Source: Thiothrix sp. (GTDB taxonomy: Bacteria; Pseudomonadota; Gammaproteobacteria; Thiotrichales; Thiotrichaceae). From it: a DNA stretch of 64,000 bases. Both the position numbers and the translations under genes were made by a program. A model generated the notes under the pieces. It searched no databases and was not told where the DNA came from. It saw only the letters and a list, made by a program, of their open reading frames with translations. Shown piece by piece: positions 3,018 through 63,923 of the stretch (position 1 is its first letter; every line of letters starts with the position of its first letter). Location of the stretch: positions 124,001-188,000 of the forward strand of contig NZ_JAQTLS010000008.1 of assembly GCF_028714775.1 (NCBI RefSeq), read 5' to 3'.

Positions 3018-5357
3018 TTGAGGGGGATATTCCCCCTCCTGTTGGTGGCATTCGTGGGGTGGTGGTATTTCTACAGCCTCCCCACGACGCTCTTCGCCAC
3101 CACTCATTCCCACCTGCTGTTAGACCGCAACGGCAGGCTGTTGAGTGCACACATTGCCGCCGACGGGCAATGGCGTTTCCCCGAACTCGAAAGCGTGCCG
3201 GATAAATTCGCTACCGCCCTAATCCAGTTTGAAGACAAGCGTTTCCAGCAACACAGCGGCGTGGATTTTCTCGCCCTTGCCCGCGCTACCTATGACAACC
3301 TGCGAGAACAGCGCATAGTCAGCGGTGCAAGTACCTTGAGTATGCAAGTCATCCGTCTATCACGCGGCAATCCACCCCGTACTTTGACCGAAAAGGGTGT
3401 GGAACTGCTTCGGGCATGGCGGTTGGAAAGCCGTTACAGCAAAGATGAAATCCTTAAACGCTACGCCAGCCACGCGCCGTTTGGTGGCAATGTGGTGGGT
3501 TTGGAAGCGGCCGCTTGGCGTTATTTTGCGCGTAGCCCCGAACAATTGTCGTGGGCAGAAAGCGCCATGCTGGCGGTGTTGCCCAACAATCCCGCGCTGA
3601 TCCACCCCGGACGCAACCGCGAGCGTTTGCTAGCGAAGCGCAACCGTTTGCTCAACCAGCTTTTCACCCAGAATGTGCTGTCGAAGCTGGAATACGAGTT
3701 GGCAGTTGCTGAACCCTTGCCCGAAGCGCCGCATCTGTTGCCCCGCCTTGTGCCACATTTGCTGGATACGTTGGCAGCGCAACACCCTGACGGGCAACGT
3801 TTCCGCACCACGCTGGATGCCAATTTGCAGCAGCAACTCAATACCTTGGCGCAACGCAGCGGTGAACAACTGGCTCTGGAAGGTGTGCAAAATCTGGCAA
3901 TTCTGGTGCTGGATAACCGCACGTTTGAGGTGATGGCGTATGTGGGCAATCGTCCCGACATGGCTTACAACGTGGAACAGGGTCACGCGATTGACATGAT
4001 CCAGCGTCCGCGCAGTACCGGCAGCACCCTCAAGCCCTTGTTGTTTGCGGATATGATTGAGCAAGGGCTGATCTTGCCGGATTCGCTGGTGGCGGATGTG
4101 CCGGTGAATTACAGCGGTTTTTCCCCGCAAAATTACAACCGCCATTACCACGGCGCGGTGAGTGCGCGGGAAGCTTTGGCGCGGTCGCTGAATATTCCGA
4201 TGGTGAATCTGCTGAGTGTGCGCGGGGTCGAGCCGTTTTTGATGCAATTGCGCCAACTGGGTTTCAGCCACTTGACCCGTTCGGCACGGGATTACGGTTT
4301 GAGCCTGATTCTGGGCGGGGCGGAAGCGTCGTTGTGGGATTTGAGCGTGGCCTACGCCAACCTTGCCAACCGTGCCGCGCAAGATCAGCAGCACCAGCAA
4401 ACCTTTTGGCAACAAGGCCGGATGCTGCTGGCGGACAATGCCAATACTCAGCAGATTGCTACACTTTCCACGGCTTCCGCATGGCTGACGATTGATTCCT
4501 TGCTGGAAGTCGCCCGCCCCGGCGACGACGGTTACTGGGAGAAATTCAGCAGCAGCCGCAAAGTCGCGTGGAAAACCGGCACGAGTTACGGGCAGCGCGA
4601 TGCGTGGGCGATAGGCACTACCCCGGATTACACCGTGGGCGTGTGGGTCGGGAATGCCGCTGGCGAAGGGCGAGCCGGACTGACCGGGACGCAAAGTGCC
4701 GCGCCGATCTTGTTCAATACCTTCAGTCTGTTGCCGTCGAATCGCGGCTGGTTCCAACGCCCCGATTGGCAAATGAGCAAGGTGGAGGTATGCCGTGATG
4801 ATGGCTATCTAAGCAATGGCGCGTGCGAAACCAAAACGGTGTATATGCCGCTCAGCAGCCACTTTGCGCGGATTACGCCTTACCATCAGCGTATCCATCT
4901 GGATGCCAGCGGGCAATGGCGCGTCACCAGCGATTGCGAAGCGGTGGCGAACATGCAAACCCGCAACTGGTTTGTGTTGCCACCGGATCAGGCCGATTAT
5001 TACCAGCAATTTCATGCCGATTACCTACCGCTGCCGCCGTGGCGTGCCGATTGCCAAAGCGATATCGACAGCCAGCAGGACGCGCTTACGCTGGTGTACC
5101 CGCAAGACCATACGCAGATTTACCTGCCGCGTGAACTTGACGGTAAGTTGGGGCAAACGATTTTCCGCGCCGTGCCTAGCCGCCCGGAAACACTGCTGTA
5201 CTGGCATTTGGATAACCAGTTTATCGGTACGACCCAGACGTTCCACCAGCAGGCAGTGCAACCCGCAGCGGGCAAGCATCGGCTGACGGTGGTGGATGAG
5301 GCGGGCAATCGGGTGGAGCGCGAGTTTGAGGTGTTGGTCACGGCGCAGGAGAAGTAG
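3018..5357 (+). CDS. pbpC: Penicillin-binding protein 1C (transglycosylase/transpeptidase)
   Basis: FEDKRFQQHSGVD glycosyltransferase motif, RPRSTGSTLKP and KTGTSYGQRDAW transpeptidase motifs, C-terminal PBP1C domain. Confidence 0.95.
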   Translation: MRGIFPLLLVAFVGWWYFYSLPTTLFATTHSHLLLDRNGRLLSAHIAADGQWRFPELESVPDKFATALIQFEDKRFQQHSGVDFLALARATYDNLREQRIVSGASTLSMQVIRLSRGNPPRTLTEKGVELLRAWRLESRYSKDEILKRYASHAPFGGNVVGLEAAAWRYFARSPEQLSWAESAMLAVLPNNPALIHPGRNRERLLAKRNRLLNQLFTQNVLSKLEYELAVAEPLPEAPHLLPRLVPHLLDTLAAQHPDGQRFRTTLDANLQQQLNTLAQRSGEQLALEGVQNLAILVLDNRTFEVMAYVGNRPDMAYNVEQGHAIDMIQRPRSTGSTLKPLLFADMIEQGLILPDSLVADVPVNYSGFSPQNYNRHYHGAVSAREALARSLNIPMVNLLSVRGVEPFLMQLRQLGFSHLTRSARDYGLSLILGGAEASLWDLSVAYANLANRAAQDQQHQQTFWQQGRMLLADNANTQQIATLSTASAWLTIDSLLEVARPGDDGYWEKFSSSRKVAWKTGTSYGQRDAWAIGTTPDYTVGVWVGNAAGEGRAGLTGTQSAAPILFNTFSLLPSNRGWFQRPDWQMSKVEVCRDDGYLSNGACETKTVYMPLSSHFARITPYHQRIHLDASGQWRVTSDCEAVANMQTRNWFVLPPDQADYYQQFHADYLPLPPWRADCQSDIDSQQDALTLVYPQDHTQIYLPRELDGKLGQTIFRAVPSRPETLLYWHLDNQFIGTTQTFHQQAVQPAAGKHRLTVVDEAGNRVEREFEVLVTAQEK

Positions 5358-5375
5358 CCTGATAAGCTGCTGGGG

Positions 5376-6305
5376 CTAGGCGCTATATGGATTAGATTGT
5401 CCCGGCGGTGTATTTTTATAGCGCTTGTAAGACCACATATATTGTGCTGGGGCAATGGCAATGCACTGTTCAACGCCTTCATTCAGCGCCCGTGCAGCCA
5501 GTAATTCATCAGGCGAAGTAAACTCTGGGTTCACGGGCAGAAAATGGATGCGGTATCCGCGTCCTTTGGGGAGCCGTTCTGCAATTCCCCACAATACGGC
5601 TGCTTGGGCGGTTTGTGCCAAGCGTGAGGCTAAAGTCATGGTTTTGGCAGGATGCCCGAAAAAATCTGCATAAACCCCTGATGACTTGCCGGGGTCTTGG
5701 TCGGGTAGAATGACGCTGACCTGATTTTCGGCGAAGGCTTTGCGCAATGCCTTGACGCCACGGGCATTGGTCGGCACTAAGGTTGCCCCAGTGCGTTCAC
5801 GGGCGCGAACGGTAAAGGCTTCAAGGCTGCTCAAGCGGGGAGGGCGGTACAGCGCAGTCATCGCTGATTTGCTGGCAAGGTAGGGCGAAAATAATTCCCA
5901 AGCGCCCAAGTGAGGGGTCAGGATCATGACGCCTTTGCCATGTTGCTGTGCCTGCTCGAAAAGCGCTAGCCCCCGAACTTCCACGATCTTTTTCAGTAAG
6001 GTGGTAGGTTGCCATAACCATAACGGGGCAATTTCAGTGGTGGTTTTACCCAATTCGATCAGGCTTTGTTTAGCAAGGAGCAAGCGTTCGGCTTCACTCA
6101 ACTGTGGGTAGGCAATTTGCAGATTCTGTAAGGTGACGCTGCGTAGCTTATTGGGTAAGTACCAACTTAGTAGACCTAGCGCCGCACCCAGTGCATGATT
6201 TATCTGTAGCGGCAAAGTGCTAAGAATATGCATAAGACCAATAAAAAGACTGCCACGAAGCCGGTCTTTTACAGGGATGGTTTGGGTGGGGGGTAATGCT
6301 GTCAT
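5376..6305 (-). CDS. Lysophospholipid/lauroyl acyltransferase family (LpxL/HtrB-like)
   Basis: LTPHLGAWELFSPYLA HxxxxD/E-type motif, PDQDPGKSSGVYADFFG. Confidence 0.9.
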   Translation of the reverse strand: MTALPPTQTIPVKDRLRGSLFIGLMHILSTLPLQINHALGAALGLLSWYLPNKLRSVTLQNLQIAYPQLSEAERLLLAKQSLIELGKTTTEIAPLWLWQPTTLLKKIVEVRGLALFEQAQQHGKGVMILTPHLGAWELFSPYLASKSAMTALYRPPRLSSLEAFTVRARERTGATLVPTNARGVKALRKAFAENQVSVILPDQDPGKSSGVYADFFGHPAKTMTLASRLAQTAQAAVLWGIAERLPKGRGYRIHFLPVNPEFTSPDELLAARALNEGVEQCIAIAPAQYMWSYKRYKNTPPGQSNPYSA

Positions 6306-50621: not shown

Positions 50622-52163
50622 ATGTTGCAACGCTTACCCGTTGGCATCCAGACCTTTTCCGAGTTACGCGGGCGTAACTGCCTGTATGTGGATAAAACCG
50701 AAACCATTGCACAATTGCTGAATACCGGGAAATATTTCTTCCTCTCGCGCCCGCGCCGCTTCGGGAAATCCCTGCTGCTCTCCACCATCAAGGAAATTTA
50801 CCAAGGCAACCGCGCCCTGTTCGACGGATTGTGGATTGCCGACCAGTGGGATTGGGGTAAAGTGCATCCTGTCATCCATCTGTCGTTTGCCAGCATGGGC
50901 TACCGCGAATTGGGGTTGGAAACGGCTATCCGCTTGCGGTTACAAAGCTACGCCAACGATTATGGCATTTGCATTGATACCATCGGCAGCATTGCCCGCA
51001 TCTTTGCCGAATTGTTGGAAAAAATCGCCAACCAACACGGCAAGGTTGTGTTGCTGATCGACGAATACGACAAGCCGCTGATTGACTACCTTGATGACAT
51101 CCCGTTGGCGCGAACTAACCAGCAGGTGATGAAAACCTTTTACTCGGTCATCAAGGACAGCGACCCCTACTTGGAATTCCTGCTGATTACGGGCGTGTCA
51201 AAATTTAGCCGCGTGTCGATTTTTTCCGACCTGAATAACCTCTATGACCTGACCTTAGATCGCAGTACTGCCACCCTGTTGGGCTATACCCAAACAGAAC
51301 TGGAGCATTATTTCACCCCCTACATGCCGGAAACCGAACAGTATCTTGAAATTACCCGTCCAGCATTGTTGGAAAAAATCCGTGAATGGTATAACGGCTA
51401 TACGTGGGATTTGCGCACCTCAGTCTATAACCCGTATTCGATCTTGAGCTTTTTCCAAGCGCAGGCATTCCGTAATTTCTGGTTTGAATCCGGCACACCC
51501 ACCTTCTTGCCCAAGCTGATGCGCCGCGATAAGGTGTATCGGCTGGACAAGTTTAAGATAGATGACTTGGGGTTGGGCAATTATGACCTCGACAGGTTGC
51601 AACTGATCCCGGTGATGTTCCAGACGGGTTATTTGACCCTGCAAAGCCAAGACAAGTACGGTATGTATTGGCTGGATTACCCCAACCGTGAAGTGCGCCG
51701 TTCGATGCTGATGTTCCTGATGGCGGAATGGGCGCACGTCGAACCTGCCTATACCACGCCAATGGTGCTGCAACTCAGCGAAGCCTTTGACAACAATGAT
51801 GTGCCTGCGGTGATTGAGGCGATCAAGACCGTGTTCCAGAAAATCCCTTACCAGATATTCTTGCAAGACCGCGAAGCCTATTACCACAGCCTGATTTACC
51901 TGACGTTTTTCTATCTGGGGCAATACGCTGAAGCGGAGGTTAATGAAAACAACGGGCGGGTGGATTGCGTGGTAAAGACGCCAACCCACCTCTATATCAT
52001 TGAATTCAAGCTCGACAAGACCGCCAAGATTGCGATGGAACAGATCAAAAGCCGCGATTACGCCGGGGCATTCCGCGCTGACCCGCGTCCGAAGGTGCTG
52101 GTAGGCATCAACTTCAGCAGCAAGTTGAAGGGTGTGGATGATTGGGTGATGGAGGCGGGCTGA
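50622..52163 (+). CDS. AAA-ATPase-like protein with C-terminal PD-(D/E)XK nuclease domain
   Basis: LPVGIQTFSELRGRNCLYVDKTETIAQLL, FFLSRPRRFGKSLLLSTI; C-terminal NGRVDCVVKTPTHLYIIEFKLDK. Confidence 0.9.
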   Translation: MLQRLPVGIQTFSELRGRNCLYVDKTETIAQLLNTGKYFFLSRPRRFGKSLLLSTIKEIYQGNRALFDGLWIADQWDWGKVHPVIHLSFASMGYRELGLETAIRLRLQSYANDYGICIDTIGSIARIFAELLEKIANQHGKVVLLIDEYDKPLIDYLDDIPLARTNQQVMKTFYSVIKDSDPYLEFLLITGVSKFSRVSIFSDLNNLYDLTLDRSTATLLGYTQTELEHYFTPYMPETEQYLEITRPALLEKIREWYNGYTWDLRTSVYNPYSILSFFQAQAFRNFWFESGTPTFLPKLMRRDKVYRLDKFKIDDLGLGNYDLDRLQLIPVMFQTGYLTLQSQDKYGMYWLDYPNREVRRSMLMFLMAEWAHVEPAYTTPMVLQLSEAFDNNDVPAVIEAIKTVFQKIPYQIFLQDREAYYHSLIYLTFFYLGQYAEAEVNENNGRVDCVVKTPTHLYIIEFKLDKTAKIAMEQIKSRDYAGAFRADPRPKVLVGINFSSKLKGVDDWVMEAG

Positions 52164-55971: not shown

Positions 55972-56406
55972 TTACGACTCATTCAACAAATGCAGCAGAC
56001 CTACCAAGAACATGAGCCGGTCACGGGTTATACCGCCAAACTTACCGCGTAACTTATCGAGTATATTGGCAGCGACCCGGTAGGACGCCACATCGACGGA
56101 ATATTCAATGCGTTTGAACGGTTCGCCCCGCGCCAAGTGCCGCAGGATGTCGATTTCCTTTTGGTTCAAGCTGGCAAGGAAAGGCCGCAGGAATTGTTTC
56201 GATAGTTGCTGTTCGGCAAGTACACAGGAATGGAACGCCCTAGTTATCAGGAACAGTGTGTCCAGCTTTTCCTGCTTGAGCAAAGCGAACGGGGCGTCGT
56301 GTTCGGAACTGATGATGCTCGCGCCCGCAATACCATCTTTGTTGGTCATGGTGGGGATAGTCAGCGCATTACGGATGCCATAGTCGGCACGCGCCAGCGC
56401 AATCAC
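55972..56406 (-). CDS. LuxR-type regulator, C-terminal part (end of ligand domain plus GerE-type HTH); continues 56403..56735 after a -1 shift
   Basis: IALARADYGIRNALTIPT...LNQKEIDILRHLARGEPFKRIEYSVDVASYRVAANILDKLRGKFGGITRDRL. Confidence 0.75.
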   Translation of the reverse strand: MIALARADYGIRNALTIPTMTNKDGIAGASIISSEHDAPFALLKQEKLDTLFLITRAFHSCVLAEQQLSKQFLRPFLASLNQKEIDILRHLARGEPFKRIEYSVDVASYRVAANILDKLRGKFGGITRDRLMFLVGLLHLLNES

Positions 56407-56735
56407 CGTGGTTTCTGCCTTGCTACTTCGTGCTCACGCCAATCCAAAGGCAGCATATAACCGCTATTCACTTTTCTGATGGTGAAATCCCGCTCGTCAA
56501 GCCGTTCCGCTTGGTAGTGCTCCAAAAAATCCATCGGGTATTCGGTCGTAGCGGCGAATACGGGTGGTGTAGAAAACTTCGTGTTTAATTGGATATTGGG
56601 GATGAAGGTATAAGTTGCCCCATCAAATCCCATACCTACAACAAATTGGTCGTAAAGACGAAAACGCGCATCCAACGACTCGGCGGCATAAAGTTCAGCC
56701 ACAAAGCGCCCTAGCAGCGTGTGGTCAACGTGCAT
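56403..56735 (-). CDS. LuxR-type regulator, N-terminal part (autoinducer-binding-like)
   Basis: FAATTEYPMDFLEHYQAERLDERDFTIRKVNSGYMLPLDWRE; ends GTGA, overlapping the next ORF. Confidence 0.72.
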   Translation of the reverse strand: MHVDHTLLGRFVAELYAAESLDARFRLYDQFVVGMGFDGATYTFIPNIQLNTKFSTPPVFAATTEYPMDFLEHYQAERLDERDFTIRKVNSGYMLPLDWREHEVARQKPR

Positions 56736-56816
56736 GAAACATAACCTCGCTCCCTATGGACAAGTAGCAGACTCCCTAACCTAACCCCGCTACCATACCA
56801 TTAACGCTAGGTATTA

Positions 56817-57500
56817 CTATGCCTCCTTGTGTAATACCAGAAAATTAACCCCCCCACTAAAATGCCGTTGGTGGCATTCCAGTACCCGAAACCCGACTTC
56901 TTGCGCCTGCCGGATCAAGCCATCCATGCTAATGAAATTGGCTTGCGGGTTATCTCCTAACTTAAGATTATAGTGCTTAAACGCGGCAAAGTCTGGGTGC
57001 GCGACCAACTCTTTTTCCGCATCGCGCAATAATTTTTCCAAGCATAACCGTTGGTTAGGCGTCGCCAGAACGAAGCTCGCACCCTCCGTCAGCATTGTGA
57101 AGATATGCTTTAAGGTTAGCACCGGATCAGGCCACGAGTAATAACTCTGGATGGATACCCCAGAATCAAAACGGGCGTCTACTGCCTCAATCATGCTGTG
57201 CGCAATGGTGAAAGAGGGGCGTTGGAGGGTTTGCACTACCTGCCGCGCCACCGTGACCATTTCCTGCGCATAATCCACGCCGGTGTAAGCGGTAATGTGC
57301 GGGTTGTCTGCCAGCAATGGTGCGATTTTCGCGCTGCCACAACCACAATCCACCACGCTGCCTTGCAGGTAAGTGCAGGCTTCCTGATACAAATTCAGTT
57401 GCACCGAGGTGGTGACGGAGGCGTGTAAGCGGGCGTAATGTTCCCATTCGGTAACGGCGTAAGCGGCTTCCCCCGCTGGGCTATGTTCATGCAAGCTCAT
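56817..57500 (-). CDS. SAM-dependent class I methyltransferase
   Basis: GSVVDCGCGSAKIAPLLADNPHITAYTGVDYAQEMVTVARQ; start overlaps synthase stop. Confidence 0.85.
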   Translation of the reverse strand: MSLHEHSPAGEAAYAVTEWEHYARLHASVTTSVQLNLYQEACTYLQGSVVDCGCGSAKIAPLLADNPHITAYTGVDYAQEMVTVARQVVQTLQRPSFTIAHSMIEAVDARFDSGVSIQSYYSWPDPVLTLKHIFTMLTEGASFVLATPNQRLCLEKLLRDAEKELVAHPDFAAFKHYNLKLGDNPQANFISMDGLIRQAQEVGFRVLECHQRHFSGGVNFLVLHKEA

Positions 57501-58084
57501 GGTAATTTCTCCCCAATAAATTTTTCTAAAAAAGGTTTGCTACGTTTCACATCCCACTCAAGGAAGGAAAACGGTTCGTTGGTTCCGTAGGAATAGCCGA
57601 TGTCTTTAACCAGCACGTTAGCGCCGACCGCTTTCTCATAAAAACGGTTGCTTTTGCTGCGGCAAATGAACACCAGCGAATCTATCGAATGGGTGATGCC
57701 GATTTCGTAGTAGGTCAGCAGGTAACTGGGTAATGCCCCCTGAGCCTCCCGCGAAATGGCAAACTTGCTGGGTTCGGCGATGACTTTGCCGCTAGCCCGC
57801 AACTGGTCTACTGCCGGTTTGATGAGTTCATCGGCGGGTAAACCCAATTCCCCGTCGAAAGCAACCCGCCCGGTGCTGATCACTTCCCCCGTTTCCTTTG
57901 CGCTGTACAGCACGCAGGCTTCTTGGTCGTACACGTCGTCCTGAAAGCAGGTCACTTCGGGATAAAGTTTGCTGTATTCCACCTCCCGGAGTTCCCAGAT
58001 TTTGTGCAGCGTATCCTCTGATGTGGCAATGTTTAAAAGCCCCGGCACTCGTGACAGTGCCAGTGATGGTTTCAATTCGTACAT
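57497..58084 (-). CDS. N-acyltransferase of the FeeM / LuxI-like GNAT superfamily (candidate signal synthase)
   Basis: GEVISTGRVAFDGELGLPADELI; VIAEPSKFAISREAQG; ITHSIDSLVFICRSKSNRFYEKAVGANVLVKDIGYSY. Confidence 0.65.
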   Translation of the reverse strand: MYELKPSLALSRVPGLLNIATSEDTLHKIWELREVEYSKLYPEVTCFQDDVYDQEACVLYSAKETGEVISTGRVAFDGELGLPADELIKPAVDQLRASGKVIAEPSKFAISREAQGALPSYLLTYYEIGITHSIDSLVFICRSKSNRFYEKAVGANVLVKDIGYSYGTNEPFSFLEWDVKRSKPFLEKFIGEKLP

Positions 58085-58108
58085 TTGGATCCCCTTATTT
58101 ATTAAGTT

Positions 58109-58128
58109 GATCCCAAGCGCTTGGTATC
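58109..58128. promoter_or_regulatory. 20-bp near-perfect palindrome upstream of the synthase (lux-box-like)
   Basis: GATCCCAAGC|GCTTGGTATC, 9 of 10 positions paired. Confidence 0.5.
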
Positions 58129-58301
58129 GGTTTCTGCATGATGCGGGATGAAGTATGCCTATAATTTCCACACTATTTCTGTGAAAAAATCACATTTTGC
58201 TTAATTAGTGCTCATGCTGGTAGGGATGCCATTTCCGTAACTGACGGCGGGTGCAACAGCCTGCTAAACTCCACGCAGTCCATTAGCAAGGGAACACAGA
58301 C

Positions 58302-60678: not shown

Positions 60679-60933
60679 TTAGTAATGGTAGCGGCACATC
60701 GCTATCAGCAAATCCTCGCCATCCACTTTGTAAACCAGCCGATGTTCATCATTGATGCGGCGCGACCAATAGCCAGACAGCCCGTGCCGCAACGGTTCGG
60801 GCTTGCCGATACCTTCAAACGGTTCTCGGGAAATGGCTTTGATTAGGTCATTGATGCGTTTGAGCATTTTCTTATCGGCTTGCTGCCAATGTACGTAGTC
60901 TTCCCACGCTTTGGATGAAAAGATTATTCGCAT
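60679..60933 (-). CDS. yoeB: Txe/YoeB family toxin
   Basis: FSSKAWEDYVHWQQADKKMLKRINDLIKAISREPFEGIGKPEPLRHGLSGYWSRRINDEHRLVY. Confidence 0.96.
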   Translation of the reverse strand: MRIIFSSKAWEDYVHWQQADKKMLKRINDLIKAISREPFEGIGKPEPLRHGLSGYWSRRINDEHRLVYKVDGEDLLIAMCRYHY

Positions 60934-61181
60934 TCAATCAACTCACGCACTTGACCCTGACCACGCTCCAATTCCGCAATGGATTCCAGCAGTCGGTTGG
61001 CATTAGCAGGGCTACGTAATAAATACGCGGTTTCTTCCATCGCCTTGTAATCTTCCAATGAAATCATCACCACGGCTTGCTCGCGGTTGCGGGTAATGAT
61101 GATGGGTTCGTGATCTTCGCAGACCCGATCCATCGTTTTGGCTAAATCCGCTCGCACGGCGGTGTAGGAAATGGCGTTCAT
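60924..61181 (-). CDS. yefM: YefM family antitoxin
   Basis: MNAISYTAVRADLAKTMDRVCEDHEPIIITRNREQAVVMISLEDYKAMEETAYLLRS. Confidence 0.95.
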   Translation of the reverse strand: MNAISYTAVRADLAKTMDRVCEDHEPIIITRNREQAVVMISLEDYKAMEETAYLLRSPANANRLLESIAELERGQGQVRELIECE

Positions 61182-61314
61182 GGCTAACAAACCTGTACGT
61201 GATAATGTACGTAAAACTATAAGCTAGCAACCCTTAACAGTGCAAGTTGAAATACATACCAGCAAACAGAATGTGGCAAACTACGCCGATTGAAGACGAT
61301 AACAAGGATCGACT

Positions 61315-63094: not shown

Positions 63095-63601
63095 TTATTC
63101 CCCAGCCATCACCGTAAGCTGTTCGCGCAATCGTGCCGACAGCCGATACCCAGAACGGAACAATGCATCCAGCTCCGTTGTGACGTTGGTAATGTACCCA
63201 CGCCGCTTTGCCGTCACCAACACGATACCCGTGCCGATAATGCGCACACCTTTTTGTTGCGCCACTACCCTGCCGCGCTGTTCGTCAATTAGCAGTAAAT
63301 CGGCGGGGAGATGCAGGGCAAGCGCAATGGCTTCCGCTTCGCCGGGGTCTAAACGCTGTTTTAACTCAGCGACAGCGGCGGTGGGAATAGCAGCATAATC
63401 TGCCGTTTCCAACCAACCTTCTGCTAACGCCTGCTGAAGTTCTGCACCACCCGGACGCAAACTACCTGCCTGCAATTCCGCATGAACGGCAGGAGGTATC
63501 AAGATGCGTTGGTAAAGCTGTTGAAGCAGGGTCAATCTGCCAATTTTTGCCAAGCCAATCAACGGGCTGGCATCAGCAATGATCACAGGCAGCAAGCGCA
63601 T
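63095..63601 (-). CDS. DUF3368 PIN-like toxin
   Basis: VIIADASPLIGLAKIGRLTLL; LDPGEAEAIALAL; LLLIDEQRGRVVAQQKGVRIIGTGIVLV. Confidence 0.88.
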   Translation of the reverse strand: MRLLPVIIADASPLIGLAKIGRLTLLQQLYQRILIPPAVHAELQAGSLRPGGAELQQALAEGWLETADYAAIPTAAVAELKQRLDPGEAEAIALALHLPADLLLIDEQRGRVVAQQKGVRIIGTGIVLVTAKRRGYITNVTTELDALFRSGYRLSARLREQLTVMAGE

Positions 63602-63923
63602 CCTCCAATTCGCGTTCGAGTTCTTCGGGCGGATAATCCACCGCATCAATGCCGCTTGCACCGAGCAATTCGATGAAGGATGATAAATCCATGTCTGCCA
63701 ACTTGGCGGCTTGCGCCAGCGTCAACTGATGGGATTGCACCATGTGCAAAGCGATGACACGGTGAATGCCATGCTGTAATAAATGCGCATCAAAGGGGAT
63801 TGCCAAAATGGAGGGTTTGCCGTGCTTGGTGATGATGCTGATATTACCATCGGTGGCATGTTTCAGCAGCTCACCGGAACGGTTGCGCAAATCACGCGCA
63901 GTGTAGACTTCGACAGCTTGCAT
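63573..63923 (-). CDS. Fused antitoxin: Phd/YefM-like N-terminus plus UPF0175 C-terminus
   Basis: YTARDLRNRSGELLKHATDGNISIITKHGKPSILAIPF followed by HMVQSHQLTLAQAAKLADMDLSSFIELLGASGIDAVDYPPEELERELE. Confidence 0.85.
   Translation of the reverse strand: MQAVEVYTARDLRNRSGELLKHATDGNISIITKHGKPSILAIPFDAHLLQHGIHRVIALHMVQSHQLTLAQAAKLADMDLSSFIELLGASGIDAVDYPPEELERELEDALAACDHC

Follow-up and report, generated by a model that had tools for sequence, protein, structure and literature searches.

A candidate autoregulated signalling module of FeeM-type synthase, methyltransferase and LuxR-type receptor in Thiothrix and its relatives

An acyltransferase gene, a methyltransferase gene and a gene for a LuxR-type receptor stand in a row in the genome of a Thiothrix sp., and the locus raises the question of what the two enzymes make and whether the receptor senses it. 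The DNA analysed (the window) was a stretch of 64,000 nucleotides, for which an original prediction had proposed that a methylated N-acyl compound is both made and sensed at this locus. The reading favoured here, with moderate confidence, is a conserved, autoregulated module in which a FeeM-type enzyme and the methyltransferase make a methylated signal that the LuxR-type protein senses, acting at a dyad upstream of feeM. No description of a FeeM-methyltransferase-LuxR unit was found in the literature searched (open-licence papers); a published account elsewhere is possible.

The features of the locus are given in Table 1. All three frames were found on the minus strand in the same orientation, as originally predicted. 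The 4-nt overlap between the acyltransferase and methyltransferase frames is present with the sequence ATGA, and the LuxR-type frame, expected ~80 nt downstream, opens with an ATG at 56735, 81 nt past the methyltransferase stop. The predicted LuxR-type receptor was confirmed as a member of the autoinducer-binding family but not as an intact gene, being split into two frames by a deletion of 13 nt, as judged against the unbroken gene of relative G058 (L024). Purifying selection on the genes was evident from dN values of 0.13-0.15 against dS >1.4 (closest relative). Because the genes are under such selection and the trio recurs in relatives, the arrangement is not attributed to chance.

Table 1. 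Positions of the trio and its upstream elements in the window
Feature	Position	Strand	Remarks
FeeM-type N-acyl amino acid synthase (GNAT fold family), 195 aa	57497..58084	-	ATG at 58084; PF21926
Class I SAM-dependent methyltransferase, 227 aa	56817..57500	-	PF13847/PF13489/PF08241 above cut-off
luxR-type gene, N-terminal fragment, 110 aa, most of ligand-binding domain	56403..56735	-	PF03472
luxR-type gene, C-terminal fragment, 144 aa, end of ligand-binding domain + divergent HTH	55972..56406	-	PF03472
20-bp dyad GATACCAAGCGCTTGGGATC, candidate operator, lux-box-like	58109..58128	-	just upstream of feeM
GCATAMT-like + GCATGCA-like conserved elements, candidate promoter region	58130..58160	-	footprint alignment, 8 loci

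The acyltransferase scored 73 bits against the FeeM family PF21926 (cut-off 27). A FeeM match was obtained for 18/18 of its aligned relatives, and the family profile retrieved the FeeM crystal structure 2g0b with an E value of 5e-6. The suspected kinship with FeeM was thus borne out, and an unrelated GNAT family was not indicated. feeM is single-copy, the only FeeM of the window genome. LuxI (Autoind_synth, PF00765) was matched neither by the window acyltransferase nor anywhere else in the genome; the same genome-wide search was positive in 28 of 229 other genomes. As a FeeM-type enzyme, the acyltransferase would use acyl-ACP as donor and attach a fatty acyl chain to an amino acid at its amino group. 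FeeM and the methyltransferase were modelled with AlphaFold from three sequences; the models reached pLDDT values of 47 and 53 and were too poor for use.

FeeM relatives were located in 16 of the 63 genomes of the order, at 19 loci. The same methyltransferase subfamily was present at 17 of the 19, and 16 carry a LuxR, all from one subfamily; a lack of conservation in relatives, which would have counted against the original prediction, was thus not observed. The LuxR gene lies downstream, upstream or convergent to the enzyme genes. Three FeeM loci have no adjacent LuxR, two of which also have no methyltransferase. At L032 and L033 FeeM stands without methyltransferase or LuxR beside a protein of 128-131 aa, with a LuxR of the subfamily on another contig; the small protein falls into one sequence group with the C-terminal portion of L031 5805..6455. 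Protein distance matrices of the trio were correlated at r 0.89-0.90 (0 of 2000 shuffles), for which shared descent alone could suffice. Small regulators of the XRE type, present near the trio in L029-L031 and L037, are not a general feature of the loci.

Wider samples of 369 genomes of the class and 399 of the phylum were also searched. The trio was absent at FeeM relatives outside the family in both samples, and the class sample yielded no further member of the methyltransferase subfamily. In a plasmid collection, the methyltransferase and LuxR queries, run separately, both returned the same two Pseudoalteromonas records only, and FeeM alone returned no match. The Pseudoalteromonas replicon encodes a 412-aa protein with a trio-type methyltransferase at its C-terminus, followed 10 nt later by a gene for the same LuxR; the N-terminal region of this protein is acyltransferase-like and has no Pfam match. 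Among viral contigs a single weak methyltransferase fragment (L058) was found.

The methyltransferase scored ~45 bits against PF13847/PF13489. Its relatives are generic class I enzymes only, and the family is uninformative on the atom that is methylated. All 17 matches to its subfamily in the 63 genomes of the order lie at FeeM loci, either adjacent or fused, and four loci encode FeeM and methyltransferase as a single protein of 427-453 aa. Enzyme fusion together with strict co-occurrence argues strongly, from sequence, that the two act in one pathway. In the proposed scheme the methyltransferase would methylate the FeeM product, and a methyl ester is the likeliest chemistry because that product bears a free carboxylate. 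The end product would probably be a methylated N-acyl amino acid in the form of its methyl ester. Such esters are known compounds of Roseovarius and Loktanella (PMC6296433), and their synthase was still unidentified as of 2024 (PMC11580390).

Methylation may instead occur elsewhere, at a hydroxyl of the acyl chain, on an intermediate or, prior to acylation, at a carbon or nitrogen atom of the amino acid, in which case the signal would not be a methyl ester. The generic class I matches leave room for this, and a precedent is found in stieleriacine biosynthesis, where a methyltransferase adjoining N-acyl amino acid synthases is proposed to C-methylate tyrosine (PMC7293339). Fusion to FeeM suggests that the acceptor lies near the FeeM product, with which other atoms are still compatible. 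Methylation at another atom is considered rather unlikely, though it is the strongest of the alternatives, and the methyl ester is retained as the predicted product.

The autoinducer-binding domain PF03472 was detected in 16/16 relatives of the trio LuxR. In the window gene, the N-terminal frame scored 33 bits, the C-terminal frame 17 bits, and the two read as one protein 57 bits. At a threshold of E 0.1, 5 of the 16 members gave a GerE HTH match, and the window protein had no Pfam GerE match. The family profile aligned with RhlR over the full length, including the HTH, and with TraR in part; residues equivalent to E178, L182 and G188 of TraR are largely retained in the family.

In complexes with N-acyl homoserine lactones (AHLs), the ligand is contacted by W57, Y61, D70 and W85 (PMC3821632). 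Y61, D70 and W85 (TraR numbers) are invariant in 16/16 trio receptors, and W57 and P71 are replaced by F or Y in all 16. The full residue set conserved in AHL receptors (W57/Y61/D70/P71/W85) was accordingly not found in the trio receptors (n = 16). In TraR, the acyl amide lies opposite Y61 and D70, and the lactone carbonyl opposite W57. Since the amide-facing Y61 and D70 are kept and the lactone-facing W57 is replaced, the pocket pattern is consistent with an N-acyl ligand other than an AHL, carrying a different head group. The predicted N-acyl amino acid methyl ester would be an open-chain look-alike of an AHL, and the dedicated LuxR-type subfamily would bind this methylated product.

The dyad upstream of feeM was found in nine loci, and its footprint is conserved across an eight-locus alignment. 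The sequence ACCAAGNNCTTGGNATC occurs without mismatch in four copies in the 63 whole genomes, all just upstream of feeM, and the dyad core CCAAGCGCTTGG occurs as a single exact copy in the window genome. Both arms of the G054 dyad are changed symmetrically to CCAGTCGACTGG, and G016, with a FeeM only 24% identical, retains GATACCAAGTACTTGGAATC at the same place. The dyad has the form of a lux box, an inverted repeat of ~20 bp upstream of a synthase gene. It ends ~24 nt before the feeM start codon, downstream of the best -10-like element. A scan upstream of feeM found no sigma-70 consensus pair, so the promoter assignment in Table 1 is a guess.

An autoregulatory site for feeM is the simplest reading of the dyad. 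Ligand-binding LuxR would act at the palindrome, by activation or by repression, and so place the synthase operon under its own control. Repression or a roadblock is possible because the position of the dyad is unlike that of a classical activating lux box, which is centred ~42 bp upstream of the transcription start. Three further candidates were set aside. The third of the CCAAGCGCTTGG sites in Thiothrix eikelboomii falls within the coding sequence of a trkA-like gene and was taken as chance. A wider regulon was not adopted, as dyads with one mismatch exceeded the reversed-pattern control by a modest margin only, and several of them repeated a single sequence. A hairpin of the leader RNA, with GGATC...GATCC flanking the ribosome site, was rejected on the changes in G050, which fail to restore pairing.

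A signal circuit is the simplest explanation of the locus because a LuxR is linked to the enzymes and the dyad is private to feeM. The methylated N-acyl amino acid may instead be no signal, serving as a surfactant, antimicrobial or membrane lipid, with LuxR as a local regulator of production that would respond to a precursor or to some other molecule. Antimicrobial and anti-algal activity has been reported for N-acyl amino acids and for their methyl esters, and AHL reporters did not show signalling by them (PMC6296433, PMC11580390). The absence of a second exact dyad from the genome means that no regulon is visible beyond feeM, and no target genes beside the trio are conserved beyond close relatives. 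Against this, the receptor belongs to the LuxR autoinducer-binding proteins and retains the residues in contact with the acyl amide, and in the tree the trio receptors are interspersed with solo receptors from genomes that lack the enzymes, as would fit a molecule shared between cells. A non-signal role is judged unlikely, and the signal circuit is preferred.

The LuxR subfamily is present in 35 of the 63 genomes of the order, many of them without FeeM, so that at least the copies in FeeM-less genomes sense something from elsewhere. The F-Y-D-F-W pocket signature is common to the solo receptors, with one exception at W57. A well supported tree pair places the G057 solo beside the G058 trio receptor, and another well supported group unites the G051 solo with the trio receptors from G055 and G057. 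The pairing of solo receptors (L125-L144) with trio receptors of other species is suggestive of cross-species listening. That the F-Y-D-F-W subfamily reads signals, and that receptor-only relatives listen to those of other species, is put forward tentatively, as a possibility held with less assurance than the module itself.

The frameshift in the trio receptor bears on the state of the circuit in this strain. The two luxR frames join at a GTGA overlap (window 56390..56450), and re-initiation of the C-terminal half is conceivable in principle. In both halves dN is well below dS in comparison with relatives, and the break is therefore either recent or an assembly fault. Because the trio receptor is frameshifted, this strain probably has a broken circuit at the window locus, with the synthase uncoupled from its own receptor. 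An intact solo LuxR with the F-Y-D-F-W pocket was located elsewhere in the window genome (G000), on contig 27 at 4714..5463 (L125); on the tree it lies near the receptors of fused FeeM-methyltransferase loci of other species.

A more drastic interpretation is that the operon is a decaying remnant, functionless in this strain, of which the receptor is already a pseudogene. The 13-nt deletion speaks for this, as does the stop carried by the FeeM of relative G057. feeM and the methyltransferase are intact in the window, however, with dN far below dS, and the low dN/dS of both luxR halves makes any decay recent. The dyad is also intact, a receptor of the same family is intact on contig 27, and the luxR break may be an assembly error. 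Loss of function of the whole operon is accordingly thought improbable, and a module conserved in the family, with a probable break in the receptor of this strain, is the reading retained.

Very improbable is a FeeM linked to exosortase and PEP-CTERM proteins, acting as a synthase for envelope or exopolysaccharide assembly: at least one FeeM locus outside the family has a PEP-CTERM-like setting (G703, L056), but no exosortase (PF09721) was found in the window genome, no PEP-CTERM genes were seen among the neighbours of the trio, and the FeeM matches in the class and phylum samples that lack the trio also lack its methyltransferase. The G703 locus, from another member of the class, is a different, PEP-CTERM-type kind of FeeM locus, with two FeeM-like genes, an E1/ThiF-like protein and a methyltransferase near a protein with a PEP-CTERM-like C-terminus.

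Among known systems, LuxI/LuxR shares with the trio a GNAT-fold acyl-ACP synthase linked to an autoinducer-binding LuxR and a 20-bp palindrome near the synthase gene. The trio differs in having FeeM as synthase, a dedicated methyltransferase, a receptor pocket without W57 and P71, and a dyad in the presumed 5' leader. With FeeM and other N-acyl amino acid synthases it shares the PF21926 family and its invariant D, P, R and E positions; described members of this type lie in biosynthetic or exosortase-linked clusters, whereas the trio feeM is tied to LuxR and one methyltransferase subfamily. N-acyl amino acid methyl esters, the predicted product class, are suspected signals (PMC11580390) and are known from alphaproteobacteria. 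A methyl-ester signal made by a methyltransferase is also found in the PhcB/3-hydroxy fatty acid methyl ester quorum sensing of Ralstonia (PMC8578825), which differs in having no N-acyl amino acid, no FeeM, and the histidine kinase PhcS as sensor. LuxR solos of plant-associated bacteria likewise have changes at conserved pocket residues, and their ligands are not AHLs (PMC10134790). In these solos the changes are W57M and Y61W, and a linked synthase is absent (PMC10134790), whereas the trio receptor carries W57F/Y and P71F/Y, keeps Y61 and has a linked synthase.

Other genes were noted in the window. A YoeB-type toxin and Phd/YefM antitoxin pair lies on the minus strand at 60679..61190, between the neighbours of the trio, and is conserved in G058 and G054. 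Overlapping frames for a DUF3368 (PIN-like) protein and a UPF0175 protein at 63095..63923, also on the minus strand, resemble another toxin-antitoxin pair. A protein with AAA-ATPase-like and PD-(D/E)XK nuclease regions (PF09820/PF08011) is encoded on the plus strand at 50667..52163.

The relatives of Thiothrix are filamentous sulfur bacteria, some of which cause sludge bulking and form streamers. A signalling system of this type was not found for them in the literature searched. If the proposed reading is correct, the locus would represent a further signal chemistry for which synthase, tailoring enzyme, receptor and operator all lie in one small unit, and the orphan N-acyl amino acid methyl ester (NAME) compounds would gain their first candidate genes. 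The receptor-only genomes would then be a natural set of candidate eavesdroppers.
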